A stretch of DNA of 64,000 nucleotides from Procambarus clarkii (taxonomy: Eukaryota; Arthropoda; Malacostraca; Decapoda; Cambaridae). The stretch's first letter is position 1. The number at the start of each line of letters is the position of its first letter. Positions 32,771 to 62,339 of this stretch are shown here, in pieces. The notes beneath the pieces are model-generated. The model saw only the letters and a program-made list of their open reading frames with translations, had not been told where the DNA came from and searched no databases. A program made the translations under genes and the position numbers. Location of the stretch: contig NC_091156.1 in the NCBI RefSeq assembly GCF_040958095.1, positions 23,987,729-24,051,728 on the forward strand. Direction: 5' to 3'.

Positions 32771-32780
32771 CCACACCTAG

Positions 32781-35562: not shown

Positions 35563-36215
35563 TGTTCAACCCGTTGCTTTGCCAGTAGTACGCAGCTGGG
35601 AGCTCGCCGTCCGTGTCCGAGCCGCCCGAGGAGGCCTCTGTAGAACAGACGGTAAACCATAGGCTCGAAAGAGGGGGGGGGGCAAAGAAAAGCTGACGTA
35701 GGAGGACAGCCTCAACTATGGGCTAAAGGGCAATACACGGGGAAAACAGCAAAACCCGGCCGCAACAAGGCCGAGAGACCAGAGCCCCATGAGCAGATAA
35801 GAGAACGGGGACGGGAAACCCAGTTAAGACAGCATGAGTTGACGAGATAAAAGTCTCGGCAACGAAAGGCCGGCACTACTAATACCTAAGTGAATTGAAG
35901 CCTTACAAGGACTGAAAGAGGAGCCTGCACTGCAAGTGCAGAGAGAGAAGGGGAAACACTCTGAGGGGGGGGGGGGCCCTGCCCGCCCCCCCTGGAATGT
36001 TTCCTTGGCTTGCAAGGGCCAAGGAAACCTCCGCCGGGAATGGCACGCGATACACCTAAGACACTTGGGCGTTGGCAAACAAAGGAGGCGGCTCCCGCAG
36101 GACGCACGCACAACTGGGAGGGAAAGGGAATTAGCAGTGGGTTGAGGAGAAGAGAGCGTCGCCGAAGGCTAACTGAAAGGCAAACAAGGAGGCCTGAGTA
36201 AGGACATAGGTCCTT
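35563..36215 (-). other. 5' non-coding region of the DIRS-like element
   Basis: GC-rich, no gene seen. It holds a 13-base G run (about 35,964-35,976) and a perfect inverted repeat, GTTTCCTTGGC (35,999-36,009) pairing with GCCAAGGAAAC (36,018-36,028) around an 8-base loop. The boundary with the AT-rich DNA beyond about 36,215 is set by composition change only. Confidence 0.5.
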
Positions 36216-41639: not shown

Positions 41640-41784
41640 ACATACATTGTATAAATGATACATTACATGGTCAATCTTGGATACAAGTCCAATATATCAT
41701 CAAGTGTTCCAGTACTCATATAGTAATTACACAGTTCAGCATACCTCAGCCCAGAAAGGCAAAAGTCAGACAATATGGGACATT
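41640..41784 (-). pseudogene. I-like LINE C-terminal residues after the BEL insertion
   Basis: The minus-strand frame encodes CPILSDF, then LRYAELCNYYMSTG and LDDILDLYPRL, corresponding to CPVISDLR...RYFELCNYFIHLG...LEDILMLYP at 37,330-37,460. It continues the sequence EHYIVE encoded just before 52,164, so the BEL element lies within one former reading frame. Confidence 0.7.
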
Positions 41785-43383
41785 TGTGGGATATTTGGGG
41801 CTTGAACATGATTATTTAAATATTAATGTAGTAAATTAAATTACGAAGGACCACCCACTTTTATAGGAAAGAGGGAAACTGAGAATTTCTGATCATTAGA
41901 TAATTCCTAGATGATACCAGTAACTATGGATAAACTAGAAAATATGATCATAGAAATAATTAATGGGCTGTATTATTAAATGAAACAAACCTCAAACGCC
42001 TACATTGGGGGGTTATTACTGGAGGTAAGTACGTCCAGGAATTAGTGTGGTTCGTTCACTAATTTAATTAATAATAATCTAATCCTATAAAATAATATTA
42101 AACTGATATCATTACCATAAAGGGGAACATAGATTATGAGCATAGTAATGAATTACAGTAAACCACATATCAATCCCAAAGAATTCTGCACACAAGAAAT
42201 TGCAATAGAATCATAAAAGGAAATAAATCTTAGCTTAATGAAGATTCCTTTAGAAAGCCATGGAAGTTCCTCTTATTCTCTGGACTCGGTCGACTGACGA
42301 GTAGAACGGGTTAACATGGGAGGAGGCAGCATGGAGAATTCTTCTCTCGTGCTGCAAGACAAATATTTTACAGTAGCAACTGATTTACCTACTGAATCTA
42401 TATATTCAAGAAAATTAATAGTTACAGGTGACAAATTTTAATCACCTGTTATTAGATGTTATCGTGCGTCATAACGGACAATCACCCAGCTACTATTAAA
42501 CCTTTTACCTGATGCATCACATAAAGGAATATACTTTGCTGTGGGCACTGTATAAGTATTAAGATTGCCGTGCTTCGCGTCCCAGGCTCTGGTTAACCCT
42601 ATCCTGGATAGTGACGCGCTTCGCTGGCCGGTCACGTGTCGTCAAGAACCAAGTCAAAGAGCTCCTTATTCGACACCAGCACCAGCTGAAGATACTATCT
42701 GCAAGGTTATTCACGCCTCACAGTGGCGACTTTCATCTGAGGATGGATAACGCCTGTCCTAGTTGCTGGACAATGGCGTCTTCTTATGAGTACGGTAAGC
42801 GCAGGTCTGCCTCTGAACGGCTCTCCACGTGTACTGAGCTGGCCTTCCTCTACCCACGCTGAGTCCGCGTTCATAAAACAAATTATTGTCTCGGACATTA
42901 ATATTTCTCGCATTTACGCTTGAAACGTTAAAGACTGGACGGGTATATTATTTAGAGGAAGAAAATATTGTTATTTACCAATTTAAGAATAGTAAATATA
43001 TAAGGGAGAGGAATTAATGTCTTCCCATGGCATTCACTGGTGCCGTTAACTTTATCACGAGATAGACGCTATGATTCCAACGCTCTATTCGGCTTTTTGT
43101 TAGAGATCAATTCGTCTGCAATTAGTTATCATACAGAATGCTTTAATTATGGAGAATCGAATTTAATTCTCACATACATTGGATATAATGTGTTTACTGT
43201 AAGGAAATCTGACGCAATACTGGCGTCAGGTGACATGAGAATTCTAGCCTACTGCACAGATGAAATTATTAGTACATGAGAATTCTACGTGTTGTTAATT
43301 TTACTTACTACAATAATTAGTATGGTTAGTAATAAGTAATGAGAATACAACAATGTTGTATTCGGTGTTGGAAATATCCAACA
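41785..43383 (-). repeat. BEL/Pao 3' LTR
   Basis: On the plus strand it begins TGTGGGATATTTGG and ends GGAAATATCCAACA, short imperfect inverted ends with TG...CA. At 1.6 kb it is long for this superfamily. Short open frames inside it (for example 42,565-42,750 and 43,040-43,279) are present in both LTRs but show no recognisable motif. Confidence 0.95.
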
Positions 43384-43735
43384 TAACTCCGGGGGGAGGA
43401 TTCTAGGGTCGTAGTGTACTGTGTTGTACTGACCTATCCCGAAGTGATATAAAGATTAATACATTAGTATGTTAATATGTTAGTATGTTAGTACACACAT
43501 AACGAACGTCCCAGATTTATCAAGGACTTACAAGAACTTGAGTCTTGCTATTTACATGTCAAATGAAACATGTTGTTTGTAGCCTACACAATATTTATAG
43601 AATTTAACTCACCCCATTTAAACTAACAGAATCTACGGTGATGCGATATCCTGGGTCATAGTGACGTGTAATGTTTTGTTATGTGATATCACATCGTAGC
43701 TTCATCATAGTTATCTCAGTGGGAAGTGAAGTAAA
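43384..43735 (-). other. BEL/Pao 3' untranslated region
   Basis: Non-coding stretch between the pol stop and the 3' LTR. The sequence next to the LTR reads, in the sense direction, CCTCCCCCCGGAGTTA, which is pyrimidine-rich rather than the purine-rich primer tract expected. Confidence 0.6.
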
Positions 43736-45718
43736 TTATTCTTCTTCAGAGTGGTAATAGGCTTGCAAATTCCGCCTACATTGTTGAGCTGCAGCTCTAG
43801 TGGGGCGGTTGCTTGGAGGAACAAATTCATTGTCCTCTGAAATTACTGGGGAAACTGGATCTGGCTGATATTCTTGTTCAGTCAGTTCAAGGGGAACCAG
43901 CTTCTCTAAAGTTTTTAGAGTAGTGTTGCCTCTGCATAAGACTTTAACCACTCTTAGGACACCTTGTCGATCTGGATGAATGGTGACAATTTTACCTATA
44001 GGCCACTCGGACCTTGGTCCATCACTGTCGACTAGTACTAGGTCTCCCGGTTTTAATTGCACCTTATTGTAAGGACTCGAAGCTCCGTAGTGGTACTCTC
44101 GTAGAGCTGTGAGGTACTCTCGAGTCCACACCTCATTCCACCTGTTAATAACTCTAGAAAGATGTTGGTAGCTTTCCACCAAGTCTCCTCTGGTCACATG
44201 GGACGGGTCTACAGGGTCCTCTTCGGCTAAAGGGATGAGAGGGCTCAGTAGACCTCCATGGATCAAGTGAGAGGGGCTCAGTGGTTCTCTCTGGGTATAA
44301 TCATCAGACAGGTAGGTGATGGGGCGGTTATTGACTCGCGCCTCGATTTCCACAACAATAGTTTGGAGTTCTGAATAACTGACCTTTTGTCGGTGTAAAG
44401 TTTTCCTTAGACACTTCTTGACTGTGCCTACCATTCGCTCATAGAACCCACCTTGCCAAGGGGCTCTCGGTGCTATGAATTTCCAGTGACATTGTCTTCT
44501 TTGTAAGACTGACTGTACTTCAGGGTGGTTCCAGACTTCTCGCAAACAACTTTCTCCTGCCACAAAATTAGATCCGTTGTCTGATATCATTAATCTAGCA
44601 CATGATCGGCGGGCAGCAAATCTGCGGAAAGCTTGAATGAAAGCTTCAGCACTCATGTCTGGGGTGACCTCTAAGTGCACGCCTCTGGTTGTAGCACATG
44701 TAAAGAGACAAATGTACGCCTTCACTGGTATATTATCTGGGTTACCAGTGAGGAGTAAGGCTTCTGTATAATCAACTCCAGTGGTTTCGAAAGGACGAAG
44801 ATGAACCACTCGCTCTTCTGGGAGTGGGGGAGGTCCTGGGTAAGGACACACTCTAGCGTCGTATCTCTTACAGATTACACAAGATTTAATAATGGTCTTA
44901 ACAGTCTGACGACCTTGAGGAAGCCAGTACTTTTGTCTAAGGTCGGTGAGAGTATCTAAAACTCCACCATGTAGTGTACCATATTGATGGTGATGTAAGA
45001 CAAGAAGTTTAGTTATGATGTGTTGACGAGGTAAAAGAATTGGATTTTTAGTGTCTAAGTCAATCTTTGCATGCAGCAAACGTCCTCCACATCGTAGTAT
45101 GTTATGAGTGTTGACATCGTACCAGATGCCCAGAGACTTAGTGAGTTTATCCGGAAGATTCTCAAATTCGTTTCCGTAAGTCTCTTTCTGTGCACGCTTG
45201 ATCCAATAGTGGACAGGATTGGGAAATTTATGTCGAATTCCTACTTTAGTAAGGAAATCAAACACGTGCGCAGTCACTCGTAACAATTTGCTTAAGTTGG
45301 AATAGTGATGAGGATCAATGGCTAATATTCGCTGAGGCTCTGGTTCCTTCATGGGAGTGGTGATATTGGTCACTATGACTTGTGGCTTTTGTTTGGGCCA
45401 CTGACCACCAACAAGCCATGAAGGTCCATTGAACCACAGCGAAGACTTGACAAGTTGTTTTAATGTCAATCCTCTTGATAAATAATCTGCAGGATTGTCC
45501 TTGGTAGGGACATGTCTAAACTTATATCCTGTGGATAAATCATGAATCTCCCTGACGCGATTACTGACGTAAGGAGTTTTGTTGTTATTGTTTCTTACCC
45601 ATTGTAAGACTGCCTCGTTGTCTGACCACACTACAATCTCACCAAAGTGGATATTACTGAGTGTCTTTGCCAGGCAATGGGCCAATCTTACTCCCACTAG
45701 CAATGCAGTCAACTCCAT
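43736..45718 (-). CDS. BEL/Pao pol: RNase H, integrase, C-terminal domain
   Basis: The 660-codon open frame starts MELTALLVGVRLA (RNase H acidic residue) with VVWSDNEAVLQW and a K-D-N-P-A-D motif. The integrase zinc domain has LHHHQYGTLHGGV...CVICKRY. The catalytic core has D in TGVDYTEALL, D in MISDNGSNFV and E in WQGGFYERMV. A C-terminal domain of the type found after BEL integrases follows (WNEVWTREYLTALRE, LKPGDLVLV). Integrase inserts the cDNA; this domain looks intact. The frame is separated from the RT by a CR1-A fragment, so it would not be made as part of a full polyprotein in this copy. Confidence 0.9.
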   Translation of the reverse strand: MELTALLVGVRLAHCLAKTLSNIHFGEIVVWSDNEAVLQWVRNNNNKTPYVSNRVREIHDLSTGYKFRHVPTKDNPADYLSRGLTLKQLVKSSLWFNGPSWLVGGQWPKQKPQVIVTNITTPMKEPEPQRILAIDPHHYSNLSKLLRVTAHVFDFLTKVGIRHKFPNPVHYWIKRAQKETYGNEFENLPDKLTKSLGIWYDVNTHNILRCGGRLLHAKIDLDTKNPILLPRQHIITKLLVLHHHQYGTLHGGVLDTLTDLRQKYWLPQGRQTVKTIIKSCVICKRYDARVCPYPGPPPLPEERVVHLRPFETTGVDYTEALLLTGNPDNIPVKAYICLFTCATTRGVHLEVTPDMSAEAFIQAFRRFAARRSCARLMISDNGSNFVAGESCLREVWNHPEVQSVLQRRQCHWKFIAPRAPWQGGFYERMVGTVKKCLRKTLHRQKVSYSELQTIVVEIEARVNNRPITYLSDDYTQREPLSPSHLIHGGLLSPLIPLAEEDPVDPSHVTRGDLVESYQHLSRVINRWNEVWTREYLTALREYHYGASSPYNKVQLKPGDLVLVDSDGPRSEWPIGKIVTIHPDRQGVLRVVKVLCRGNTTLKTLEKLVPLELTEQEYQPDPVSPVISEDNEFVPPSNRPTRAAAQQCRRNLQAYYHSEEE

Positions 45719-45723
45719 CTCAG

Positions 45724-45857
45724 ATTCAGATTCAGATGTTTATTCAGGTAAGGTATATACATACAAGTGATGTTACATTAATGGATTGATATATAGATAG
45801 AGCTAGTGCATACAATGCCTAAAGCCACTATTACGCAATGCGTTTCGGGCAAACCTT
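45724..45857 (-). mobile_element. CR1-A 3'-end fragment inside BEL pol
   Basis: About 134 bp of the CR1-A 3' end (minus strand GCCCGAAACGCATTGCGTAA ... TACCTTACCTGAATAAAC) followed by three ATCTGA repeats. The flanks ATCTCAG (45,717-45,723) and ATCTGAG (45,858-45,864) look like a 7-bp target duplication with one mismatch. It splits the RT/RNase H junction of pol. Confidence 0.8.
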
Positions 45858-47282
45858 ATCTGAGGTAAGGATCTCTTCTTGATGGGAGCAACTCTTGCTT
45901 TAGATGTGAGTAAAATTGATTGAGCACTGTTAACTAAATAGGCTACTGCGCCATATGCTTTGCCAGAGGCATCGCAAAAAACGTGCAAATTGGTGGGTAA
46001 GTTTGGTCCTGAAGCATTACGAGGAAATTTCAAAACGCCTAACTGATTAAAATCCGTTGAGAGTATTTGCCATTTGGCTTGTAACTCACTTGATAACGAA
46101 TCATCCCATCGCATATGTTTCTGCCAGCACTCCTGCATTAGGAGTTTGCCCCTTATTAATATAGGACTAAGTAGGCCTAAAGGGTCAAATGGTTGACTGA
46201 CAAATGAGAGCAGTGTTCTCATGGTAAGGGTTGAATTATCAGTTTGCACTGACTTGACATTCATCTCGTCAGTGCTGGTGTTCCATTCCACGCCTAGAAC
46301 CTTTAATTTACTGGGTACCTGATAATCGGGAAATTCTTTCTCGATTATCTGGTTAAGCAGTTTATTATTTGAGGCCCATGACTGTAGAGGCATATTGGCT
46401 CCTAACAGTTCACGGTTAGCCTCATGGAAGATTTCTACCAGATCAGCTTGATCATTAGTTGTCCCCTGGAAGTTGTCGACATACAAGTTGTCGCTAATGG
46501 TTGCCTTATAAGGGCTGTCTGATTTCCTCAAATGAGTGTCTAATGTTGCTTGCAAAAGAAACGGTGAGGACGTAGCACCAAATAATACGGAGGCAAACCG
46601 ATAGGTGATTACTTCACTGTTAGGATCCAGTGGATCCTTGAACCAGAGGAATTTTGTGTAGTCACGATCTTCCTCCTGCAATCCTACTCGGAGAAAGGCT
46701 TTGCTGATGTCAGCTGTATAGGCAAAAATGCCTGTGCGAAATCGTAACAACACGTCATGTAGCCTTTGTGTTAGGCTAGGTCCCGTTTGGAGACATTCAT
46801 TTAAGACACACTGCTCGGCTTTACTTTAGCACTGCAGTTAAAGACAATACGAATAGGTGTTGTCAATGAGTCTTTCACCACAGCATGGTGAGGTAAATAA
46901 TGACCTGTTTTTCGGTCATCGTGTTCAACAACTTCAATGAACTTATTGTCAAGTTGTTGTTGGATAAGTTGGTGATACATGGTTAGTTTGTCTGGCTGCT
47001 TCTGCAGTCGTGTTAATTGAGACCGCAATTGTGAGGCTGCCATAAAATAATTCACTGGAAGTTGGGAATGATCTAACTTCCATGGAAGTCTTACCCAGTA
47101 TTGTTTATTTGAGTAGACAACTGTATCCAGATATTGCTGGTAAGTCCACGTATCATCAGGACTTGGTTGCTCAGGGATGATGCCTAACGTATCTAAATCC
47201 CACAAACGATGTATTGGTGGGTCAGACTCAATGTCCTCGGCTCAATGTCCCTGAAGCGTAGGGGTGACTGCTCTAAACCTAG
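45858..47282 (-). pseudogene. BEL/Pao pol: reverse transcriptase, frameshifted
   Basis: The first part (to 46,801) carries the IHRLWDLD lead-in and IRIVFNCSAKV. The second (46,753-45,858) has YTADISKAFLRVGL, SVLFGATSSPFLL and the catalytic-site motif LYVDNF, with N where D is usual. Q-P-F-D-P-L-G-L-L-S-P and HVFCDASGKAYGA (RNase H start) follow. Lesions: a 14-bp tandem duplication near 47,235-47,262 shifts the frame after gag; a single-base loss near 46,800 shifts it again; and the CR1-A fragment interrupts it at 45,857. RT and RNase H would make cDNA in capsid-like particles; this copy cannot. Confidence 0.85.
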
Positions 47283-49226
47283 TTACGCCACAATTACATT
47301 ATTGGTTTGTTGGTTTGTGGACGCTGGACCTTGCCTGAAAAGCACGGGTCCTGTGAGCAATTTGCCCCCTGCGGACGACAACAAATTCATACCATGTTGT
47401 CTAGTGCATCCAGTTATAAACTTGTAATAATGATCCGCGCCTATTAATATTCCAATATCTGTGAGGCAATCGGAATTTATTTTATGATCCGCTAGCCTCA
47501 TGCGGTTTCGCTTAAGGTGTCTCGCAGTGCGAGCTAATCCTGTGACCTGCAGGTCCGTAGGAATCTTATCCACTACCACCGCATGGATTGGGCTAGTAGA
47601 GGATCCTAATCTAACTAGTAATTTAACTACTTTGTAGTCACGAGGTCCACTATTTGACAGGAAACCAGAAATGTTTAACTTCACACTTTTGGTAGGTTTT
47701 AAATTTAACTCATCTACCAGCTGTTGTGTAATGAAGGTTTTTTGTGAACCTTGGTCAAAAAGACCCATAGTGTTAATTCTAGATCTTCGGTTTATTAATT
47801 TAAGTTGAGCGGTAGGCAAAGTAGTATTATTGCCTGACTCAGTAGCAAGTACATTCACTTCGTGATGTACTTTACAATATTGCACTGCAGTAGAATTAGT
47901 AAAATTCTCTCCAGTGGTCATGGTTGGTGTAGAAGATTTTCTACATAAGGCGTAGTGGTGTACACCTTGGTTACAACGGTTGCAGGTGCGTAGTGGTACT
48001 ACACATTTCTTGGGATCATGAGAACCCATGCATTTGGTGCATTTGTGCAATTCCTGTAACCTTTTAACTCTAGCATTATACGTAGGATAAGCAGAGCATT
48101 GGTAAGTGGTGTGTTCCTGATTGCAGAACAGACACTTTCTCTGGTTAATAGACTTAGTCTCTTTAATAGACAAGTCATTGGTTATCTCTGAAGGAGATAC
48201 TGAATAGGTACCCACATTTCCACTTCTTTTCTTAGTGGATGGAGTAGGTTTGGATTTATATTTATTAGACTTACTTGGAGTCTGTTTAGGTTTGACTGAA
48301 ATATCAGTATTAATTGGTTTAGACTCAGGTTTAATTTTGTCATGAGTCTTTAACCTGTTAACTGTGATCCTCAACCCCTCGAAAATCTGATCGAGAGTAA
48401 GAAACTCAGTATTATAATGTAAGCAGAGCTCTGTCAAGACATTTCGAGGTAATTTCCTCTGTAACAATAGCTTGATAGACCATTCAGAACTAGGTATATT
48501 AACCTTGGTACCTAAGGCCTTTACTAGAGACTCTACTTCTAGTCTGAAGCTTTGAAGTGACTCTGGTCTACTGTTTGGTGCATTCAGATCTAGTAATTGA
48601 TAATAAAGGGTAGCTATGCTTAACTCTTTGTTGCAATAGTTCAACTTCAGGAGTTTTATAGCTTCCTCATAATTACTCTCATCAAGAGTAAGGTTATGTA
48701 TGACCTTTTTAGCCTCTCCTGTGAGAAGACTGAGTAGGTATGAAAATTTAGAAACTTTGTCTAGAGACTGTTTCTTATGGATGTGAACTTCAAAGGAAGT
48801 CCAAAAATTGTCCCAATTTTCTGTATCTAATCCTGAAAAGGTGGGCAAGTCTAGAGTAGGTAAACGAACCTCGGGTAAGTGATTATTGAAGTGAGACCCA
48901 GTGTTGCTGGCATTGGATCCAGACTGTTTGGCTAATTTAGATAGCCTGAAAATTTTATCATGAGTCTCCTCTTCATATTGGGAGATGTCGGTTACTATTT
49001 GACTTACTTCATCAGGATCAGTTTCTACAGTATTTAGCAGATCAAAGTAAGATTGACCTGCAGATCTGACTTGATCAAATTTCAGATCAGCCAATCTAAC
49101 TAATGACTCTAAGTGATAAGAGTCAATGGGATTATCTTTAGTTAAGCCCTCAGCCTTATTAATTAATCTGGTCAGGTGACCTTTAAGGCTAATGTAGGTT
49201 CTCCTCAATTGTTCAGGAGTAGCCAT
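47283..49226 (-). CDS. BEL/Pao gag and aspartic protease
   Basis: The start at 49,226 (MATPEQLRRTYISLKGHL) fits BEL gag N-termini better than the upstream ATG at 49,301. Domains: an N-terminal helical region; LPTFSGLDTENWDNFWTSF (residues about 130-150), the hallmark of BEL gag; a capsid-like segment; a Lys/Ser/Thr-rich linker (about 325-370); three Cys/His knuckles (CLFCNQEHTTYQC, CTKCMGSHDPKKC, CNRCNQGVHHYALC); then protease with GLFDQGSQKTFIT, where the active-site triad reads DQG. It ends at a TAA followed by CTA. BEL elements normally read gag-pol as one frame, so the stop may be a mutation, though readthrough cannot be excluded. Confidence 0.85.
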   Translation of the reverse strand: MATPEQLRRTYISLKGHLTRLINKAEGLTKDNPIDSYHLESLVRLADLKFDQVRSAGQSYFDLLNTVETDPDEVSQIVTDISQYEEETHDKIFRLSKLAKQSGSNASNTGSHFNNHLPEVRLPTLDLPTFSGLDTENWDNFWTSFEVHIHKKQSLDKVSKFSYLLSLLTGEAKKVIHNLTLDESNYEEAIKLLKLNYCNKELSIATLYYQLLDLNAPNSRPESLQSFRLEVESLVKALGTKVNIPSSEWSIKLLLQRKLPRNVLTELCLHYNTEFLTLDQIFEGLRITVNRLKTHDKIKPESKPINTDISVKPKQTPSKSNKYKSKPTPSTKKRSGNVGTYSVSPSEITNDLSIKETKSINQRKCLFCNQEHTTYQCSAYPTYNARVKRLQELHKCTKCMGSHDPKKCVVPLRTCNRCNQGVHHYALCRKSSTPTMTTGENFTNSTAVQYCKVHHEVNVLATESGNNTTLPTAQLKLINRRSRINTMGLFDQGSQKTFITQQLVDELNLKPTKSVKLNISGFLSNSGPRDYKVVKLLVRLGSSTSPIHAVVVDKIPTDLQVTGLARTARHLKRNRMRLADHKINSDCLTDIGILIGADHYYKFITGCTRQHGMNLLSSAGGKLLTGPVLFRQGPASTNQQTNNVIVA

Positions 49227-49301
49227 GTTGGGCTTAGGTTCAAACTTCACAGTGTTAGTACAGGTATATGTATTACTAATGAAGCTTGGGTACTTGTTCA
49301 T

Positions 49302-49845
49302 TAGTGAACAGGTAACATTAATTGTAGCCTAATTTAAGGTGACTACTTTATATTTTACCTCACTTGAAGTTGAATGTACCTACCTACCTAACAACAAATA
49401 GCTAGATATTTTGTGCACTGTCTGAACTTCACCATTAGTTCTCGTCCGGTTAGCTCATCCATATCACCATCAGAGTTAATGGAGAGAATCCAGCAATACA
49501 CAAAATAGATACACAAAATAATGCATACAAGAGAAATATTATGGAGACACTCCAATCAGAGTTATCTCAAAAATTAATCCCACCCTGTATAGGGTCAGCA
49601 CAAATAATATAATACATACAACACTGACTAGTTTAGATCTAGTCGTAATAATTCCTAACTAAGAACTATAAAGTTATTTAGTCTGGGCTTGTACCAAATT
49701 CAGCACAATCTCAGCCTAAATTCTACCTAATAGCATTGGTAAAGATTATTGTGGTGCAGTAAGGTGAATATAGTTGTGCTGTATTTTTTGGGTTTTTTGT
49801 TTTATAAGAGTGCTCTTGCACACACAAGTGAACAATTATGTACAG
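49302..49845 (-). other. BEL/Pao leader between extra ORF and gag
   Basis: About 540 bp, AT-rich, no gene and no boundary of a foreign insertion seen. It separates the SGNH-like ORF from gag. Confidence 0.55.
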
Positions 49846-50391
49846 TTAAGTTTGGCTTGCTAGCCACAGCCTTTTGTGATGGTTGATGGTGTTAATTAAC
49901 TTGTCAACCACATGCAACCTAGATTCCCCTGACAAGTGTACACCATCTCTGGTCAGGTTCTGTCTATAAGGTCTGGCTGTAAATTGGATATATGTGGCAT
50001 CCAATCTCACTCGCTTTTTCAGCCTGAAATTTATGTACTTAGCAGCTCTCAGGTAGTATTCCGGAGTTACTCCCCAACGATTATCTTGACTTGGTTGGCG
50101 AGGTTCCACTAATGTGAATACTACTGATTCACTGATGAGCTTGAAAGAAGAAATTATGGCTTTGAGGTGTTTGATCACCTCGGCTGGATGACGAGTGGGG
50201 TGGATGTCATTACCACCTAAGTATATAATGGTTAGATGGTGAGGCCACTCTAACGCAGGTGTTAGGGTGAGGTTATTATAAAAGTTATGAGCTGTTGCTC
50301 CTGGTGATCTAAAGATTCTCACCTCGGTGTGAGGTATAGGTCTAAGTGTTGTGGGTAATTGGCTATGACCCACTAAAGCTACCTTATACAT
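49846..50391 (-). CDS. SGNH/GDSL-hydrolase-like ORF in BEL/Pao leader
   Basis: The 181-codon intact frame begins MYKVALVGHSQLP, 172 nt inside the 5' LTR. All SGNH blocks are present: nucleophile Ser10 in VGHSQ, oxyanion Gly31 in SPGATAHNF, Asn61 in YLGGNDIHP, and Asp149/His152 in TRDGVHLS. Length, strand order and a terminal amphipathic helix (RLHVVDKLINTINHH) fit a single-domain esterase/acyl hydrolase. There is no signal peptide or membrane segment, so it should be cytosolic. It is transcribed, if at all, from the 5' LTR upstream of gag. SGNH domains are known in ORF1 of some CR1/L2 LINEs, including the one at 61,477 here, but this sequence is different. Substrate unknown. Confidence 0.8.
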   Translation of the reverse strand: MYKVALVGHSQLPTTLRPIPHTEVRIFRSPGATAHNFYNNLTLTPALEWPHHLTIIYLGGNDIHPTRHPAEVIKHLKAIISSFKLISESVVFTLVEPRQPSQDNRWGVTPEYYLRAAKYINFRLKKRVRLDATYIQFTARPYRQNLTRDGVHLSGESRLHVVDKLINTINHHKRLWLASQT

Positions 50392-50537
50392 GAGGTGAAA
50401 GTAGCAATATGTTAGTGTGATCTAGGCTAACTGATGTGTTACAATGTTAGTTGACACAATTAATTAAATAGTTAGTCTAGCTTCTATCACACAAGGATTA
50501 GTTATTAATGGTTAATAATTTAATTATAAATTTAATG

Positions 50538-50560
50538 CCTATCCGGTTCGATAAGGACCA
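50538..50560 (-). other. Putative primer-binding site of BEL/Pao, tRNA-Tyr-like
   Basis: Three bases after the 5' LTR end, the sense strand reads TGGTCCTTATCGAACCGG. TGGTCCTT is complementary to the AAGGACCA end of metazoan tRNA-Tyr, and ATCGAACC matches its T-loop region, with about nine bases missing between. Assigned from memory of tRNA-Tyr. Confidence 0.45.
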
Positions 50561-50563
50561 TAA

Positions 50564-52163
50564 TGTGGGATATTTGGGGCTTGAACATGATTATTTAAAT
50601 ATTAATGTAGTAAATTAAATTACGAAGGACCACCCACTTTTATAGAAAAGAGGGAAACTGAGAATTTCTGATCATTAGATAATTCCTAGATGATACCAGT
50701 AACTATGGATAAACTAGAAAATATGATCATAGAAATAATTAATGGGCTGTATTATTAAATGAAACAAACCTCAAATGCCTACATTGGGGGGTTATTACTG
50801 GAGGTAAGTACGTCCAGGAATTAGTGTGGTTCGTTCACTAATTCAATTAATAATAATCTAATCCTATAAAATAATATTGAAACTGATATCATTACCATAA
50901 AGGGGAACATAGATTATGAGCATAGTAATGAATTACAGTAAACCACATATCAATCCCAAAGAATTCTGCACACAAGAAATTGCAATAAAATCATAAAAGG
51001 AAATAAATCTTAGCTTAATGAAGATTCCTTTAGAAAGCCATGGAAGTTCCTCTTATTCTCTGGACTCGGTCGACTGACGAGTAGAACGGGTTAACATGGG
51101 AGGAGGCAGCATGGAGAATTCTTCTCTCGTGCTGCAAGACAAATATTTTACAGTAGCAACTGATTTACCTACTGAATTTATATATTCAAGAAAATTAATA
51201 GTTACAGGTGACAAATTTTAATCACCTGTTATTAGATGTTATCGTGCGTCATAACGGACAATCACCCTGCTACTATTAAACCTTTTACCTGATGCATCAC
51301 ATAAAGGAATATACTTAGCTGTGGGCACTGTATAAGTATTAAGATTGCCGTGCTTCGCGTCCCAGGCTCTGGTTAACCCTATCCTGGATAGTGACGCGCT
51401 TCGCTGGCCGGTCACGTGTCGTCAAGAACCAAGTCAAAGAGCTCCTTATTCGACACCAGCACCAGCTGAAGATACTATCTGCAAGGTTATTCACGCCTCA
51501 CAGTGGCGACTTTCATCTGAGGATGGATAACGCCTGTCCTAGTTGCTGGACAATGGCGTCTTCTTATGAGTACGGTAAGCGCAGGTCTGCCTCTGAACGG
51601 CTCTCCACGTGTACTGAGCTGGCCTTCCTCTACCCACGCTGAGTCTGCATTCATAAAACAAATTATTGTCTCGGACATTAATATTTCTCGCATTTACGCT
51701 TGAAACGTTGAAGACTGGACGGGTTTATTATTTAGAGGAAGAAAATATTGTTATTTACCAATTTAAGAATAGTAAATATATAAGGGAGAGGAATTAATGT
51801 CTCCCCATGGCATTCACTGGTGCCGTTAACTTTATCACGAGATAGACGGTATGATTCCAACGCTCTATTCGGCTTTTTGTTAGAGATCAATTCGTCTGCA
51901 ATTAGTTATCATACAGAATGCTTTAATTATGAAGAATCGAATTTAATTCTCACATACATTGGATATAATGTGTTTACTGTAAGGAAATCTGACGCAATAC
52001 TGGCGTCAGGTGACGTGAGAATTCTAGCCTACTGCACAGATGAAATTATTAGTACATGAGAATTCTACGTGTTGTTAATTTTACTTACTTCAATAATTAG
52101 TATGGTTAGTAATAAGTAATGAGAATACAACAATGTTGTATTCGGTGTTGGAAATATCCAACA
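50564..52163 (-). repeat. BEL/Pao 5' LTR
   Basis: 1,600 bp, about 99% identical to 41,785-43,383 with the same ends. It contains the presumed promoter for the element, read leftward. The insertion point lies within the coding sequence of an I-like LINE. Confidence 0.95.
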
Positions 52164-52682
52164 ATATTCTACAATATAATGTTCAAGAGAGTGCATGTTT
52201 TCTCTTTCACAAAGTTGACACATTGTGTACTCGACATTTGGGTTTTGAGAAAGTTGCCAGATACGTCTATATCCCAGGCGAATTCTGGCCACTATAACAT
52301 CACATTGCCGGGTTCTTGTTCTATTAGTCCCATATGTGAATATCTCCTCACGATATCTATCATAATATTTAATGCTACAACTTTCCGGTCTTTGTGAATT
52401 TGTTAGGTCGGTGAGATCTTCATTAGATATTTGTTTAAGTATTCTCTTTGTCACTGCTAATGAAACACCCATATAAATTTCTACCACTGGTTTTTCTACA
52501 GGCTGTCTTTGCAAGCATATCAACAGTGTTATGCCTTGAGATGCCAACATGTGATGGTATCCATAGGAATTTAATTTCAAATCTGTTTTCTTTAGCAGCT
52601 AAAACATTCATTCGAATATCACTGACTATTTTATGGGTGTCACTGCTATGTGCGTTCAATGCCAGGAGTGCACTCTGCGATA
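52164..52682 (-). pseudogene. I-like LINE RNase H end and zinc motif before the BEL insertion
   Basis: The minus-strand frames read KFLWIPSHVGISRHNTVDMLAK (RNase H end, with a D-to-N-like change at R-A-D), then VIVARIRLGYRRIWQLS and MCQLCERENMHSLEHYIV, the C2HC motif. It matches 6,690-6,900 and 37,190-37,330. The frame is cut by the BEL LTR at 52,163. Confidence 0.7.
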
Positions 52683-52944: not shown

Positions 52945-55697
52945 AAATAAATAAAATAAAATGTTTATTTAGGTAAGGTACATACATACAATAAATTTTT
53001 ACAAGGATTGTTTGACTTATAGGTAGAGCTAGTACATACAATGCCTAAAGCCACTATTACGCAAAGCGTTTCGGGCATGATAAACTTAAATGACAAGCTT
53101 AATACTAATTGAGCATAATGAGTAGAATGAAAACAAGAAATGAAAAACATAGATGAAAAAGCAGCACAAATACAATTATGTCGACAAACAGCGCTCTTTA
53201 AAAAAAAAAAAAAAAAACAGACATTGGTTGACAATAGAAGGGTATGGTAGGTTACAGGGAATTTATTAGGTATAGCTTCGTTTTTAACTTAAACTGGTTG
53301 AGAGAGGTACAGTCTTTAACATGGTTGGGAAGGTCATTCCACATTCTGGGCCCCTTGATTTGTAGTGCATTTCTAGTTTGATTAAGTCGTACTCTAGGAA
53401 TATCAAAACTGTATTTATTTCTGGTGTGGTGCTCATGGGTTCTGTTACAACCTTCTATGAAGCTTTTGAGATCAGGATTGGCATTATAGTTTAGCGTTTT
53501 ATATATGTATAATACACATGAGAGAATGTGCAGTGACTTAATGTCTAACATATTCAGAGATTTGAGTAGGGGTACCGAGTGATGTCTGGGGCCAGAGTTG
53601 GATATTGTCCTAATAGCAGCTTTGTGTTGAGTAATTAGAGGATGTAAGTGATTTTGGGTAGTAGAGCCCCAAGCACAAATACCATAGTTGAGATATGGAT
53701 AGATAAGGGAGTAATAGAGAGTCACCAGGGCAGGGCGTGGTACATAATATCTGATCTTAGAAAGAATGCCCACAGTTTTTGAAACTTTTTTAGATATATT
53801 TAGAATGTGTCCCTGGAAATTCAGCTTGTGGTCAATGAGAATGCCAAGGAATTTGCCATCTGATTTGTTACAAATTTGGGTATTGTTTATTTTGAGATTT
53901 ATTTGATTAGAGGATTTATTGCCAAACAGAATATAGAAAGTTTTGTCAATGTTAAGGGTGAGTTTGTTGGCAGTTAGCCAAAGATGGACTTTATTTAGCT
54001 CAGTATTTACTGTGGCATTTAGAGCAAGGGGGTCAGGACTGGAGTAAATGAAGGTTGTGTCGTCAGCAAATAGAATTGGTTTGAGGTGTTGGGAGGCATT
54101 TGGAAGGTCATTAATGTAGATGAGAAAGAGGAGAGGGCCAAGTATGCTGCCCTGAGGAACACCAATGTTGATGGGTAGGGTGGGAGAAATTGTATTATTC
54201 ACAGAAACATATTGGAGCCTGTCAGTAAGGTAGGATTTGAGGTATTGTAGGGAGTGTCCTCTGACTCCATAATGATGTAATTTAAGAAGAAGGTTTTGGT
54301 GGTTGACAGTATCAAAAGCTTTACGCAGGTCCACAAATAACCCAAAGGCAAGGGCTAAGTATATTGAGTTTGGCTAGATATGAGTAAAGCTGCTTATAGA
54401 TTAGTTTTTCAAAAATCTGTGAGATCACCACATTTGTGGACAGGCGTTACTCTCGCTTTTTTTTAGAATATCTGGAAAGGTTTGGAGTTTAAGTGACTTG
54501 TTGAAGAGCAAAGCAAGAGCAGGGGCTAAAGATCTGGAGGCTTTTTTGTAAATTAAAGTTGGTATCTCCTCAAGGGCACCAGACTTGGTTTTAAGGGAAA
54601 GGATTATCTCATTGACGTCAGTGGAATTAATAGGCTTTAGGTACAGAGACTGTGGATAGTTACCTGTAAGATAGTCATTAATGTCAGTACTGGAAGATGG
54701 AATATCATTTGCAAGGGATGAACCAATGGAAGAGAAGAACCTATTGAACTCAATAGCAGAATCAGAGACTGAAAGCTGACCATCGTTATTAGACAGGAGA
54801 GTCGGTTTGTTATTTAAAGACTTCTTTGATCCCAATATTTGTGAAATTGTTCTCCAAGTTTGTTTAATGTTGCTCTTTATTTGGGTAAATTTATCTTCGT
54901 AGTATTTAGTTTTGGCTCGTCTAATTATCTTAGATAGCAATAATGAGTAATTCTTTGAGAATTCTTTGGAGACAATTCCTAACCTATACTTCTTCTCAAG
55001 GTCATGTTTTTTATTAATAGATTTAAGTATTCCCTTTGTAAGCCAGGGATTGTTAAGCCTTTTGATTGTGACTTGTTCTGTAAGCATAGGACAGTGGGTA
55101 TTATAAAGGCTAAGAGTTTTTTGAAGAAAAGATTGCACTGCTAGGTTGATGTCCTCTATGTTTCCTAACTCGGACTCCCAGTTGATATTATCAGCAGCAG
55201 TTATAAAATTGTCTATAGCAGTTTCATTGTGCAGTCTAAAACGTATCTCTCTTGACTCAAGAGGTGGTTTGCTAATGTTAGTTAAGAGAAATGTGGGGTA
55301 ATGGTCTGTAGTGCTATCGGTGATTATACCTGAAGTAAGCGGAGAGGTTATGTTTGTCCAGATGTGATCTAGAGTCGTGGCAGTGCTATCAGTGATTCTA
55401 GTAGGTCTAGTGATTAAAGGTATGAGGAAGCAGGAATTCATACAGTTGAGGAAGCTAACAGCAGTAGGGTGTTCTGGCTCGCAAAGGTCAATATTAAAGT
55501 CCCCTGCGATAATTAGGTGGTTTTTGTTCAGTCTGTTATCAAGTATTAGATTTCTAAGGTTTGAGTTGAATTCGGACACATCAGTGTTAGGAATTCTATA
55601 AACTGCACCCACAGACAGGACAGACTCGGCACCCTTGACTCTGAAGCTGGCGAAGATATACTCCCGAAGCTGGCGAAGATATACTCCGAAGATATAC
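52945..55697 (-). mobile_element. CR1-A LINE copy, 5'-truncated, in the minisatellite
   Basis: 3' tail of TAAAA-type repeats (52,940-52,965), 3' UTR with the hairpin CCCGAAACGCTTTGCGTAAT on the minus strand, ORF2 remnants, and a 5' break near 55,650-55,697. Minisatellite units flank both ends. At the 5' junction GAAGCTGGCGAAGATATACT is repeated twice and GAAGATATACT a third time. Confidence 0.85.
53252..55650 (-). pseudogene. CR1-A ORF2 with internal deletion
   Basis: The first segment (to 54,425) carries the end of the endonuclease (IAGDFNIDLC, TTDHYPTFLLT), the linker (NNPWLTKGILKSINKK) and the start of the RT (PALALLFNKSLK). A frameshift at a run of T/A near 54,460 and a deletion of about 130 bp near 54,345 remove Q-Y-G-F-R and flanking residues. 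The second segment has [35 protein letters not shown] and an intact C-terminus (PRVRLNQTRN...KLYLINSL). Apart from these breaks it is the best-preserved CR1-A RT in the window. Confidence 0.8.
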
Positions 55698-55990: not shown

Positions 55991-56520
55991 CATCCTATAG
56001 TTGGTATGGTAGACATCATACCATCTTGTTTGCAGTAGTTTACCCCATTGACATTCCAACGTAACATCGTTTTCTGTTAGCGTTCCTACAAAACATTCTT
56101 TAAAGATTTTTAAATCACAAACAATGGTATATAATATTGATTGGTGAAGCACTGTTATTCTATGTAATAATTTATAGTGCTTATTATAATTTACTAAGAA
56201 CAACTAATATTTCTCAAAACAAAACTACGAGCCTTCAATAGGATGTTGCTGATCTGTAATATTCTAAGAGCATGGACAATAGTAGGTAAGTTTCACAACC
56301 CATGTGGGACCTGAAAACTACAATTTTCATTATAATTGAATCAATCACGACTATTCTGCTATCTACGTTGATGGACGGGTACTGTGAGACGTAAATTGGT
56401 ACGTGAGGAAGAGTTTGGGCCTTGGAAAAAAAGGTAACTGGGAATATATCACATATATACTAATTCACATTCAACATATTGACTTTAAGCATTAAGTCTT
56501 ATATGTGCTGTCTTGTGTGA
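55991..56520. other. AT-rich stretch between opposite minisatellite arrays
   Basis: No gene is seen. The first 60 bp contain decayed minisatellite units; the rest is unique AT-rich sequence. Confidence 0.55.
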
Positions 56521-59500
56521 AAACGGTTGGGGCTCCACCACCACCCACGGGACCGGTAAGGGCTCCACCATCTCCCACGGGACGAGTATGGGCTCCACCA
56601 CCACACACGGGACGGGTATGGGCTCCACCATCACCCACGGGACGGGTATGGGCTCCACCGCCACCCACGGGACGAATATCGGCTCCACCACCACCCACGG
56701 GACAGGTATGGGCTCCACCATCACCCACGGGACAGGTATGGGCTCCACCACCGCCCACGGGATGGGTATGGGCTACACCTCCGCCCACAAGAAGGATATG
56801 GGCTCCACCGCCGCCCCACAGAATGGGTGTGGACTTCACCACCGCCCACGTCACAAGTATGGGCTCCACCACCGCCCACGGGACAGGTATTAGCTCCACC
56901 ACCACCCACGGGACGGGTATGGGCTCCACCACCACCCACGGGACGGGTATGGGCTCCACCACCACCCACGGCACAGATATGGGCTCCACCATCACCCACG
57001 GGACGGATATGGGCTCTACCACCACCCACGGGACGAATATCAGCTCCACCATCACCCACGGGACGGGTATGGGCTCCACCACCACCCACGGGATGGGTAT
57101 GGGCTCCACCACCACCCACGGGACGGATATGGGCTCCACCACCACCCACGGGACGGATATGGGCTCCACCACCGCCCACGGGACGGGTATGGGCTCCACC
57201 ATCACCCACGGGACGGGTATGGGCTCCACCATCACCCACGGGACGGGTATGGGGCTCCACCATCACCCACGGGACGAGTATGGGCTCCACCACCACCCAC
57301 GGGACGGGTATGGGCTCCACCACCGCCCACGGGACGGGTATGGGCTCCACCATCACCCACGGGACGGGTATGGGCTCCACCACCACCCACGGGACGGGTA
57401 TGGGCTCCATCATCACCCACGGGACGAGTATGGGCTCCACCACCACCCACGGGACGAATATGGGCTCCATCTCCACCCATGGGACGGGTATGGGCTCCAC
57501 CATCACAAATGGGACGGTTCTGGGCTCCACCATCACCCACGAGACGGGAATGGGCTCCACCATCACCCACGGGACGGGTATGGGCTCCACCACCACCCAC
57601 GGGACGGGTATGGGCTCCACCATCACCCACGGGACGAATATCGGCTCCACCATCACCCACGGGACGAGTATGGGCTCCACCACCACCCACGGGACGAATA
57701 TGGGCTCCATCTCCACCCATGGGACGGGTATGGGCTCCACCATCACAAATGGGACGGTTCTGGGCTCCACCATCACCCACGAGACGGGTATGGGCTCCAC
57801 CATCACCCACGGGACGGGTATGGGCTCCACCACCACCCACGGGACGGATATGGGCTCCACCACCACCCACGGGATGGGTATGGGCTCCACCATCACCCAC
57901 GGGACGGGTATGGGCTCCACCACCGCCCACGGGACGGGTATGGGTTCCACCACCACCCACGGGACGAATATGGGCTCCATCTCCACCCATGGGACGGGTA
58001 TGGGCTCAACCATCACCCATGGGACGGGTATGGGCTCCACCATCACCCACAGGACAAGTATGGGCTCCACCACCGCACACGGGACGGGTATGGGCTCCCC
58101 TACCACCCACGGGACTGATATGGACTCCACCATCACCCACGGGACGGGTATGGGCTCCACCATCACCCACGGGACGGGTATGGGCTCCCACCATCACCCA
58201 CGGGATGGGTACAAGCTCCACCACCTCCCACTGGACGGGTATGGGCTCCGCCACCCCCACGGGACGGGTATGGGCTGCACCATCACCCACGGGACGAGTA
58301 TGGGCTCCTCCACCGCACACGGGACGGTTATGGCCGCCACCACCACCCACGGGACGGATATGGGCTCCACCATCTCCCACGGGACGGGTATGGGCTCCAC
58401 CACCACCCACGGGACGGGTATGGGCTCCACCATCACCCACGGGACGGGTATGGGCTCCACCATCACCCACGGTATGAATATCGGCTCCACCATCACCCAC
58501 GGGACGGGTATGGGCTCCACCACCGCCCATGGGACGGGTATGGGCTCCACCATCACCAACGGGACGAGTATGGGCTCCACCTCCGCCCACGGGACGGGTA
58601 TGGGCCCCACCACCACCCACGGGACGGGTATGGGCTCCACCATCTCCCACGGGACGGGTATGGGCTCCACCACCACCCACGGGACGGGTATGGGCTCCAC
58701 CACCACCCACGGGAAGGGTATGGGCTCCACCACCGCCCACGGGACGGGTATGGGCTCCACCATCACCCACGGGACGGGTATGGGCTCCACCATCTCCCAC
58801 GGGACGGGTATGGGCTCCACCACCACCCACGGGACGGGTATGGGCTCCACCATCACCCACGGGACGGGTATGGGCTCCACCATCACCCACGGGACGGATA
58901 TGGGCTCCACCATCTCCCACGGGACGGGTATGGGCTCCACCACCGCCCATGGGACAGGTATGGGCTCCATCATCACCAACGGGACGAGTATGGGCTCCAC
59001 CACCGCCCACAGGACGGGTATGGGCTCCACCACCACCTACGGGACGGGTATGGGCTCCACCATCTCCCACGGGACGGGTATGGGCTCCACCACCACTCAC
59101 GGGACGGGTATGGGCTCCACTACCACCCACGGGACGGGCATGGGCTCCACCATCTCCCACGGGACGGGTATGGGCTCCACCACCACCCACGGGAAGGGTA
59201 TGGACTCCACCACCGCCCACGGGACGGGTATGGGCTCCAAAACAGCCCACGGGACGAATATCGGCTCCACCACCTCCCACGGGACGGGTATGGGCTCCAC
59301 CACCGCCCACGGGACGGGTATGGGCTCCACCACCGCCCACGGGACGAGTATGGGCTCCACCATCCCCCACGGGACGGGTATGGGCTCCCACCATCACCCA
59401 CGGGACGGGTATGGGCTCCACCACCTCCCACGGGACGGGTATGGGCTCCACCACCCCCACGGGACGGGTATGGGTTGCACCATCACCCACGGGACGAGTA

Positions 59501-60020
59501 TGGGCTCCACCACTGCACACGGGACGGTTATGGGCGCCACCACCACCCACGGGACGGATATGGGCTCCACCACCACCCACGGGACGGATATGGACTTCAC
59601 TATCACCCACGGGACGGGTATGGGCTCCACCACCGCCCATGGGACGGGTATGGGCTCCACCATCACCCACGGGACGGGTGTGGGCTCCACCATCACCCAC
59701 GGGACGGATATGGGCTCCACCACCACCCACGGGATGAATATCGGCTCCACCATCACCCACGGGACGGGTATGGGCTCCACCACCGCCCATGGGACGGGTA
59801 TAGGCTCCACCATCACCCACGGGACGGGTATGGGCTCCACCATCACCCACGGGACGGATATGGGCTCCACCATCTCCCACGGGACGGGTATGGGCTCCAC
59901 CACCACCCACGGGACGGGTATGGGCTCCACCATCACCCACGGGACGGGTATGGGCTCCACCACCATCCACGGGACGGGTATGGGCTCCATCACCACCCAC
60001 GGGATGAGTATAGGGTCCAT
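56521..60020 (-). repeat. Large 30-bp minisatellite, about 116 copies, inverted orientation
   Basis: Monomers read GGGACGGGTATGGGCTCC then ACCACCACCCAC on the plus strand; the reverse complement (GTGGGTGGTGGTGGAGCCCA then TACCCGTCCC) aligns with the units at 52,683-52,935 and 55,698-55,990. Higher-order structure: a five-unit block at 57,421-57,548 recurs exactly 240 bp later, and a distinctive block at 58,181-58,335 recurs exactly 1,200 bp later. Very long stop-free frames on both strands follow from the unit length being a multiple of three and the near absence of T/A-rich codons; I do not annotate them as genes. Confidence 0.95.
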
Positions 60021-60624
60021 AATAAATGACTCCATCAAGCCATGGGAGCAGCAGGTATCCCGTCATGCCGTTACGGTGGTTGGCGGGTGACTGAGTAACT
60101 GTGACACCGGGTTGGCTGTGATCCTCCTCATCCTCTGCTGCTGGGTTGCTGCCATTTTCCTCATTATTACATTTTGTATTTCTTATATTTATTTATCTGC
60201 AAATATTATTCACTCCATATCTTTTCTGCAATCAAAATGGAATTAATAAATTTAAACCATGTTAAAAATACTTTGATTTGACCTATTGAGTTAAACAAAA
60301 AACCTTCCATGTTTGTGTAATTTGCGGTTGGAAACTAAAAGTGAAGTCGAATCACAAAAAAGTAAATGTTGCCACAATATTTGATGAACCTTTTATGGTT
60401 TAGTAAATTTTAAACCTAAAACTTCCTCGATAAGTTGTTATCAGCAGTAAACTCATCCTTATGTTGGAAAAACTAGCATTAGAAACTAATATTAATGTAG
60501 GTGTGAGTTAGGATAGTAATATGTGTGATTATCAGGTGGTACTGTTCGGCAAGCTTGGAGCGTTGAGCTTCCTGGAGAGCCAGTGGTCCGTCCAGGTCGG
60601 CTCAGTACCCGCGCTCGGGTGATC
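60021..60624. other. Unassigned stretch between minisatellite and L2 5' arrays
   Basis: The first 100 bp are GC-balanced unique sequence (TGGTTGGCGGGTGACTGAGT), then AT-rich sequence to about 60,540. No gene is seen. The last 60-80 bp may be the start of the L2 5' UTR. Confidence 0.45.
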
Positions 60625-61396: not shown

Positions 61397-61476
61397 TATA
61401 TAATTCACCAGGTGAATTCACAGTGAGAGGTTGTGTTAACCGGAGCTCCTGAGTGTTGTTATATTATCATTGCAAT

Positions 61477-62328
61477 ATGGAAGTTGTAGTTAAGGACCTG
61501 GTGACTCTAGTGGGAGCCCTGAGGACAGAGTTGGACTTTCTGCGGGAGGAGGTGCGTCAGCTGAAAGAACAACGAGAAGTAACGAAGGAGGAGACCAGCA
61601 GTAAAGGGACCTCGTCTTGGAGAGTTGTGAAAGACAGGGGCCTTAAGAAGACTTTGATAAAGCCGCCTTCAAACGCCATAGCAACTTCTAATTCATTTGA
61701 CGTTTTGGAGGACGAGTGCTGTGGAGAGACTGTGGATCGCGCAAAAGGGAAAGCAACGAAGAGAAAGGAAGCGCAGGCCCCTCAGAAAGTAAAGGAAGTA
61801 CCTAAGCAAACATTAGTTGTGGGAGATTCCCAGATAAGGTATTTGGATAGAACGTTTTGTGCTAGAGATAGGGGGAACAGGTTAAGGGTTTGCTATCCCG
61901 GAGCTGGCATTGGTGATATTATAAACAACATGAATGATATTATGGCTGGTAATGGGAACAATCCCATTATTTGCATTAGCGTGGGAGGAAATGATGTTGG
62001 TCGAGTTAGGAGTGAGGAACTGATTCAGAGGTATAAAACAGCCATAGAGTTAGTTAGGAGCAAGGGAGGAATCCCGATCATATGTGGCATTCTTCCAAGA
62101 AAGGGAGTGGGAAATGAATGGATATCGAGGGCACTTGGTGTCAATTGCCGGCTGGAAAGATATTGCAAATCAAATGCAATATCTTTCATAGACAACTGGG
62201 AACACTTCTATGGAAGAAATGAAATGTATGCTCGTGATGGGGTGCATCTATCGAGAGCTGGGGTTGTTGCTGTTGCGAACTCGTTAGAAGAAGTGGTTAG
62301 AGGTGTTTGTTTGGGTTTAAACTGTTAG
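61477..62328 (+). CDS. L2 ORF1: coiled coil plus SGNH esterase domain
   Basis: The start at 61,477 (MEVVVKDLVTLVGALRTELD) opens directly on a coiled coil (residues about 5-40). Next is a Lys-rich linker (about 45-112) and an SGNH domain: GDSQIR with Ser118, PGAG with Gly142, VGGNDV with Asn172 and RDGVHLS with Asp254/His257. CR1/L2-type LINEs are known to encode such esterase ORF1 proteins; coiled coil and domain probably form an RNA-binding or lipid-acting oligomer. An in-frame ATG at 61,453 would add eight residues. The stop is followed 11 nt later by the ORF2 ATG in another frame, favouring reinitiation. Confidence 0.85.
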   Translation: MEVVVKDLVTLVGALRTELDFLREEVRQLKEQREVTKEETSSKGTSSWRVVKDRGLKKTLIKPPSNAIATSNSFDVLEDECCGETVDRAKGKATKRKEAQAPQKVKEVPKQTLVVGDSQIRYLDRTFCARDRGNRLRVCYPGAGIGDIINNMNDIMAGNGNNPIICISVGGNDVGRVRSEELIQRYKTAIELVRSKGGIPIICGILPRKGVGNEWISRALGVNCRLERYCKSNAISFIDNWEHFYGRNEMYARDGVHLSRAGVVAVANSLEEVVRGVCLGLNC

Positions 62329-62339
62329 TAGACAGAGGT

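Follow-up and report, generated by a model that had tools for sequence, protein, structure and literature searches.

Genes for SGNH hydrolases have been described in several kinds of retroelements, which include LINEs and Penelope-like elements (PMC3905857), the bdelloid Vesta LTR elements and Athena (PMC5408684), Ngaro (PMC9210276), and Terminons (PMC6431247), each according to the passages of these papers drawn on here. In LINEs of the CR1/L2/RTEX type such as ZfL2-1 (4c1b), the enzyme is encoded ahead of the reverse transcriptase and forms the C-terminal domain of a longer ORF1 protein, where in ZfL2-1 it follows a coiled coil (PMC3905857, in part). The ZfL2-1 esterase is active with a low turnover and, in the same passages, binds acidic liposomes mainly via its surface charge and independently of the active site (PMC3905857). 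The bdelloid Vesta elements belong to retrovirus-like LTR lineages in which the GDSL gene is an ORF3 placed after gag and pol, and the passages used report no significant departure of this ORF3 from neutrality within the genome (PMC5408684). Likewise, the Xenopus Ngaro-like DIRS elements are retroelements with an extra SGNH ORF, which in these tyrosine-recombinase elements follows the recombinase (PMC9210276, in part). BEL/Pao elements, as represented by the Pfam families DUF1759, DUF1758, and Peptidase_A17, share the order gag, protease, RT, RNase H, and integrase. A BEL/Pao element with an SGNH, GDSL, esterase, or hydrolase gene was not found among the papers listed in the literature covered, which was judged mainly by title and abstract and lay outside Repbase and most subscription articles. 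The passages used of PMC7599744 and PMC2774666 hold no SGNH BEL/Pao element, and no SGNH example emerged from the literature covered on ORFs upstream of gag in Pao or on BEL elements in the crayfish Procambarus clarkii.

The window, the whole stretch of P. clarkii DNA that was analysed, has a length of 64,000 nucleotides and contains a BEL/Pao element on its minus strand, spanning 52163 to 41785, with the following features.

52164..52168, strand not assigned: target-site duplication beside the 5' LTR, AATAT as read on the minus strand, 4/5 bases equal to the other flank
50564..52163, minus strand: 5' LTR, TG...CA, 1600 bp, 98.9% identity to 41785-43383
50543..50560, minus strand: primer binding site, TGG three bases inside the 5' LTR
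49846..50391, minus strand: SGNH-type hydrolase ORF, 181 aa, the first sizeable ORF past the primer site
49420..49845, minus strand: conserved non-coding stretch in the SGNH-gag interval, probably RNA-structured by conservation and folding energy
47283..49328, minus strand: gag-protease open frame, ATG candidates at 49301 and 49226; PF03564 (DUF1759) E 1.1e-22, PF05585 (DUF1758) E 3.4e-5
46801..47241, minus strand: N-terminal open piece of pol with a frame change at its 3' end, from the ORF list
45803..46825, minus strand: pol region with RT and Pao peptidase, PF05380 E 3.9e-35 and PF00078 E 8.1e-7; its final residues are part of a repeat piece
43739..45739, minus strand: pol open piece with RNase H-like and integrase parts, PF18701 and PF17921 over the cut-off, PF13456 and PF13683 below it
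41785..43383, minus strand: 3' LTR, pairing with the 5' LTR
41780..41784, strand not assigned: target-site duplication beside the 3' LTR, AATGT as read on the minus strand, 4/5 bases equal to the other flank

The assignment to BEL/Pao is based on the Pao peptidase A17 match adjoining RT, the DUF1759 gag, the DUF1758 protease, the order PR-RT-RH-IN, the TG...CA LTRs, and a short target duplication in which 4/5 bases agree. The two LTRs match at 1583/1600 positions, with 16 mismatches and one gap. When the flanks are joined without the element, an open frame results that continues the LINE-like protein of the 5' side, and hence the element landed in an older LINE. The SGNH-type ORF begins with an ATG at 50391 and extends to 49846 on the minus strand (191 codons from stop to stop, 50421-49846), and the plus-strand translation of the locus is riddled with stops. 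It sits, on the same strand as both, between the primer site (starting at 50560) and the frame of gag-protease (49328-47283), just where the sequence-only reading had placed a 181-codon frame in the sense of gag-pol. The same reading had described an intact ORF amid broken pol frames. The pol is indeed broken, its frame changing near 46.80-46.83 kb and a short piece of repeat lying near 45.74-45.86 kb, but the ORF is not the sole open frame, as those of gag-protease (681 codons) and RNase H/integrase (667 codons) are open as well.

Several other observations concern the surroundings. The coding strand has no purine tract directly 5' of the 3' LTR (43384-43420, minus strand), where a C-rich stretch is found instead. 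Further copies of the last 16 codons of the repeat piece within pol (45720-45860, minus strand) stand just behind LINE RT frames at 53029-53076 and 14986-15033, and a third is at 17095-17142. A fragment of another BEL gag at 21600-22560 (minus strand) is 43-49% identical to the gag of the SGNH element and is devoid of the N-terminal part. The region 32134-35565 (minus strand) is DIRS-like by its look, with an RT frame (PF00078 E 7.1e-9) and an adjoining frame that resembles a tyrosine recombinase without Pfam support. The region 56490-60090 is a long minisatellite-like repeat in which several frames of both strands are open.

Similar to Vesta, the crayfish element is an LTR retrotransposon with an SGNH/GDSL gene beside gag and pol, but its ORF precedes gag instead of following gag and pol (PMC5408684, in part). 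As in the LINEs, a transposon-encoded SGNH enzyme lies ahead of the reverse transcriptase; however, it is a stand-alone protein of 181 aa whose block I begins at residue 7 and not a C-terminal domain of a longer ORF1, and block I has GHS where ZfL2-1 has GDS (PMC3905857, in part). The transposon-specific His191 of ZfL2-1, located four residues before the Asn, corresponds to Tyr57 in the BEL protein and to Ser in the LINE of the same window (PMC3905857, in part). Unlike in LINEs, gag is present beside the SGNH gene. What distinguishes the element within its own class is the hydrolase ORF together with the conserved non-coding stretch between the primer site and gag. To our knowledge, ordinary BEL/Pao elements have neither of these ahead of gag. 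SGNH genes in retroelements, including LTR elements, are known, and a BEL/Pao element with such a gene ahead of gag is a variant that is new in the literature covered.

The probability that the ORF is a proper part of the element can be judged from its genomic copies. Copies were searched in one genome, that of P. clarkii (4.03 Gb), where the numbers of candidates are a loose first look and not copy numbers, and most sets were chosen by SGNH similarity, which biases them towards intact copies. In the DNA search, the best 40 scored of 2332 candidates were all at least 98% identical. Twenty of these were read, and the LTR end, the primer-site piece, and the SGNH ORF followed in order in 20/20; gag stood behind SGNH in 18 of them, one of which (L027) has an insertion in the stretch, and was not found within the 5 kb examined in L011 and L022. 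Of 19 copies, 95% or more conserve the LTR end with the first bases of the primer site (50566-50555). A search with P0001 yielded 3256 candidates, of which the best 150 were scored and 134 had no internal stop. Thirty divergent copies were read from it, with SGNH proteins 89-93% identical to that of the window (split in L053); the stretch and gag lay behind SGNH in 30/30, and LTR or primer-site sequence ahead of it in 29, neither being found in L039. The 24 bases directly after the LTR are identical in two of the divergent copies (L057 and L058). In a protein search with 8352 candidates, 147 of the best 150 scored matches were without an internal stop.

As the choice of copies by SGNH was to be avoided, the gag start was also used as a query (best 40 scored of 1731 candidates, 15 of the 40 read). 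SGNH was present in 14/15 of these gag-picked copies, with a full open 181-codon frame in nine and a damaged one in five (L079, L082, L083, L084, and L090), and L091 had no SGNH match within the 611 bases read. The expectation that other copies carry the ORF in the same place was borne out in the close, divergent, and gag-picked sets alike. A nested insertion of another element is rejected, since the neighbours are the same across the copies read. The BEL/Pao family that carries the SGNH ORF is very abundant in the crayfish. Apart from this family, an SGNH match on C2 (18797502-18798008) lies 1064 bases ahead of a DUF1759 match (18799072) on the same strand, a spacing close to the ~1020 bases of the window; matched by coordinates only, it may represent a further family.

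In 11/30 divergent copies the N half of gag is ~40% identical to that of the window, and in the other 19 it is 56-85% identical in matched pieces, except for L041 with just 52 residues at 44%. In both gag kinds, identity is mostly 80-90% for the gag C end and for RT (20 copies, two of them with no RT match). For example, the sequence from SGNH through the stretch (~1080 bases) is 95.4% identical between L035 and L038, and RT 97.0%, and no nucleotide match was found between their gag N halves. The nearest neighbour had the same gag kind in 12/19 copies by SGNH and in 11/19 by RT, after L030 and L032 had been dropped for having no RT match. A 5' module and RT that are shared between elements with differing gag N halves indicate that the gag N halves have been exchanged while the 5' module stayed constant, and the SGNH ORF is shown by these comparisons to be independent of the gag type. 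Template switching between co-packaged RNAs would be the simplest cause. In a group of copies (L035, L038, L029, L042, L034, L048, L040, L043, and L057) the gag N half is swapped as a cassette; these elements agree at ~93-97% in SGNH with the stretch and in RT, and by similarity in SGNH and RT the two kinds are interleaved.

The SGNH ORF is, by codon comparison, under strong purifying selection, with the lowest dN/dS of the parts compared, namely SGNH, gag N half, gag C end/protease, and RT. Between the window and 28 of the 30 divergent copies the median dN/dS is 0.047 (range 0.037-0.110), with a median dN of 0.048 and a median dS of 1.06, a value near 1 and hence close to saturation; L035 (gap) and L053 (split) were left out, and the stop codons of four others were skipped. 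By the same method, the gag N half gave 0.162-0.198 in 9 copies, and in 11 copies RT gave 0.084-0.150 and the gag C end/protease 0.068-0.118. The range of SGNH overlaps those of RT and gag C/protease, and copy by copy SGNH was lower than RT in 10/10 and lower than gag C/protease in 9/10 with both values; L034 had 0.110 for SGNH against 0.109 for gag C/protease, and in L048 SGNH (0.082) and RT (0.084) were equal. The pooled pN/pS of SGNH was 0.11 among 20 close copies (the window and 19 others, L020 left out) and 0.20 among eight of the nine intact gag-picked copies together with the window, L088, which looks like its neighbour L087, being excluded. The higher value in the less biased set is what a decay of copies once inserted would lead one to expect. 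Variation at codon positions 1, 2, and 3 of SGNH was 0.026, 0.015, and 0.094 over 19 copies. The most variable third positions, together with the relatives found by search, mark the ORF as more than a chance frame. A separate observation is that dS against the window was higher in SGNH (1.00-1.25) than in the gag N half (0.75-0.83) in L032, L039, L044-L047, and L051, that is in 7/9 copies (absent in L048 and L050), despite the highly conserved adjacent stretch; possible explanations are allele exchange, codon usage, and saturation.

The sequence-only reading had predicted a dN/dS well below 1, and the value of ~0.05 between subfamilies agrees with it. A neutral passenger is rejected by the same value. 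Nested repeats are abundant in the window, and on that account a captured gene or a nested insertion without function might be considered, but with this dN/dS, the fixed position, and most scored copies open, such a passenger is barely conceivable. Rather, a conservation stricter than that of the coat and copying genes compared suggests that the element needs its SGNH gene, and the SGNH-type gene as an integral and selected part of the BEL/Pao family at the 5' position is supported by the sequences of the copies. The protein could also act against a host defence, for instance by deacylating or deacetylating a host factor or a lipid signal. A first ORF would presumably be made early, and this one is kept across gag types, both of which would suit such a role. 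Genes that face the defence are often fast-evolving, whereas SGNH is the slowest-evolving of the parts compared, and the counter-defence role is very improbable.

The stretch between SGNH and gag (49845-49420) has a mean column identity of 92% over 17 copies and shows no codon periodicity, as positions 1, 2, and 3 vary by 0.069, 0.052, and 0.047 (19 copies). The sequence of the window folds better than 100/100 shuffles (z -3.12). The consensus fold has 106 pairs with 98.0% of the cells paired (97.8% in shuffles, a level reached by 2/500), and slid versions have 30-41% of cells paired. Covariation is weak, with four pairs showing double changes (2.0 in shuffles, reached by 37/500) and six double-change cells against 2.4 in shuffles (reached by 4/500). 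With so few double changes, an RNA structure of the stretch is likely but not proven, and its basis is mainly folding energy and conservation. An Rfam search over 43000-52300 gave no match. There are 12 ATGs between the SGNH start and the gag ATG at 49301, which makes plain scanning to gag unlikely, and gag presumably depends on internal entry or splicing. No convincing pair emerged when conserved splice sites were searched for. The stretch is a possible internal ribosome entry site or packaging signal.

The encoded protein of 181 aa (21 kDa, pI 10.2) carries the complete S-G-N-H set, consisting of Ser10, Gly31, Asn61, Asp149, and His152, each at the position given in the sequence-only reading. 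The pattern of the superfamily is present, with Ser, Gly, Asn, and His in four blocks and the Asp three residues before the His. Pfam matched the window copy weakly to Lipase_GDSL_2, with E 9.4e-5 and 23.4 bits, which is under the curated cut-off of 32.9. NCBIfam had no match to the protein, and the PDB search with the single sequence found no SGNH chain, its best match being a ribosomal protein (E 0.98). A one-sequence search found one relative with 40% identity over the full length (E 6.8e-30), and a two-sequence profile found 27 relatives at E <=0.01 among 2985 candidates. No relatives were found in the genome_contigs scan or in the viral_contigs scans with the ORF and three alignments. The alignment of the window ORF with the 27 relatives (A2, 28 proteins, some of them short) has V7 G8 H9 S10, G31, L58 G59, N61, E96, and R98 as invariant residues. 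A PF13472 match at E 0.01 or better was obtained for 27/28 members, and a precomputed PF13472 label exists for 21/27 relatives. Block I is GHS in 28/28, and His9 is present in 63/63 covered copies; the GDS(L) that marks a GDSL protein in the narrow sense is not found. According to these invariant residues, GHS in place of GDS is one hallmark and ExR the second, and the SGNH ORF family is by its alignment a coherent and distinct SGNH subfamily.

The conservation of the active site bears on whether the protein acts as an enzyme. Over 66 copies (21, 30, and 15 of the three sets), the covered cells retain S10 in 62/63, G31 in 64/64, N61 in 63/64, D149 in 64/65, and H152 in 65/65, the losses being one S10, one N61, and one D149 in single copies. 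Alternatively, the protein could be a binder that uses its basic fold to hold RNA or membrane, like Oskar, which is named as a non-catalytic SGNH protein (PMC3905857, in part). The pI of 10.2, at least 9.2 in 23/27 relatives, and the binding of liposomes by the LINE esterase without need of its active site (PMC3905857, in part) speak for such a role. A pure binder would not need catalytic residues, and yet S10, G31, and N61 are invariant in the 28 proteins and almost every copy retains S, N, D, and H, which leaves the binder unlikely. The same enzyme class in bdelloid Vesta, whose role is discussed in the passages used (PMC5408684), brings in an env-like or release factor that helps particles to cross host membranes. 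However, the crayfish ORF precedes gag while the bdelloid ORF3s follow gag and pol (PMC5408684, in part), the protein has no transmembrane-like stretch by hydropathy (highest 19-residue mean 1.38), and block I at residues 7-10 leaves no room for a signal peptide; a factor of this kind is improbable. Judged from the residues, it is likely that the SGNH protein works as an enzyme.

A second SGNH gene in the same window allows a direct comparison with LINE esterases. A CR1-type LINE at 61453-64000 (plus strand), matching 4c1b with E 1.5e-21, carries its own SGNH esterase ORF1 in a 291-codon frame and an endonuclease ORF2 that continues up to the end of the window. Its gene lies 11 kb from the BEL SGNH gene and belongs to another branch. 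The two share 28% identity (E 2.8e-7, within the window), and hhalign of the BEL family against the LINE ORF1 gave a probability of 92.8 with E 4e-7. The A2 profile scored 20.1 bits on the window LINE ORF1 (best domain 16.1) and, on PDB, 22.4 on 9hi6, a designed protein, 21.6 on 4c1b (second best), and 20.1 on 2hsj, a putative platelet-activating-factor enzyme. By these bits LINE esterases are no closer to the BEL protein than other SGNH proteins are, and as LINE and non-transposon proteins score alike, the LINE esterases are not singled out. The proposed capture of the gene from a LINE is not supported, and neither is a descent from LINE ORF1 esterases. From these scores, the BEL and LINE proteins appear related as members of one superfamily would be, and the split between them looks old. 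A genome search with PF13472 placed some of its best 150 scored matches in frames of a length similar to that of the LINE ORF1.

Taken as a whole, the evidence moderately favours a BEL/Pao lineage in which an SGNH hydrolase is a fixed and selected first sizeable ORF that acts in the following manner. The SGNH protein would be translated from the full-length RNA, stay inside the cell as a basic enzyme, and sit, by its charge, on acidic membranes or on the element RNA. An ester or acyl bond may be cut there, upon which the RNA or the Gag particle would be assembled, moved, or released, and translation of Gag itself would begin further downstream, through internal entry or splicing. The place of action proposed here, the cytosol with acidic membranes or the element RNA, is tentative. 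The precedent of ZfL2-1 fits with this mechanism but proves nothing for the crayfish element.

A wide spread of such elements is hinted at by the 27 relatives. It is plausible, though the balance tilts slightly against it, that they form an old enzyme-first BEL/Pao class extending far beyond the crayfish, in which SGNH and the structured leader would be a 5' module required for transposition and constant under gag exchange. On the question of why SGNH enzymes recur in unrelated retroelements, the crayfish offers an abundant LTR family in which SGNH is separate from gag/pol, lies below the other compared parts in dN/dS, and has an open frame in the majority of scored copies. Here the need for catalysis, the substrate, and the place of action would be directly testable in an element with an otherwise retrovirus-like life cycle.
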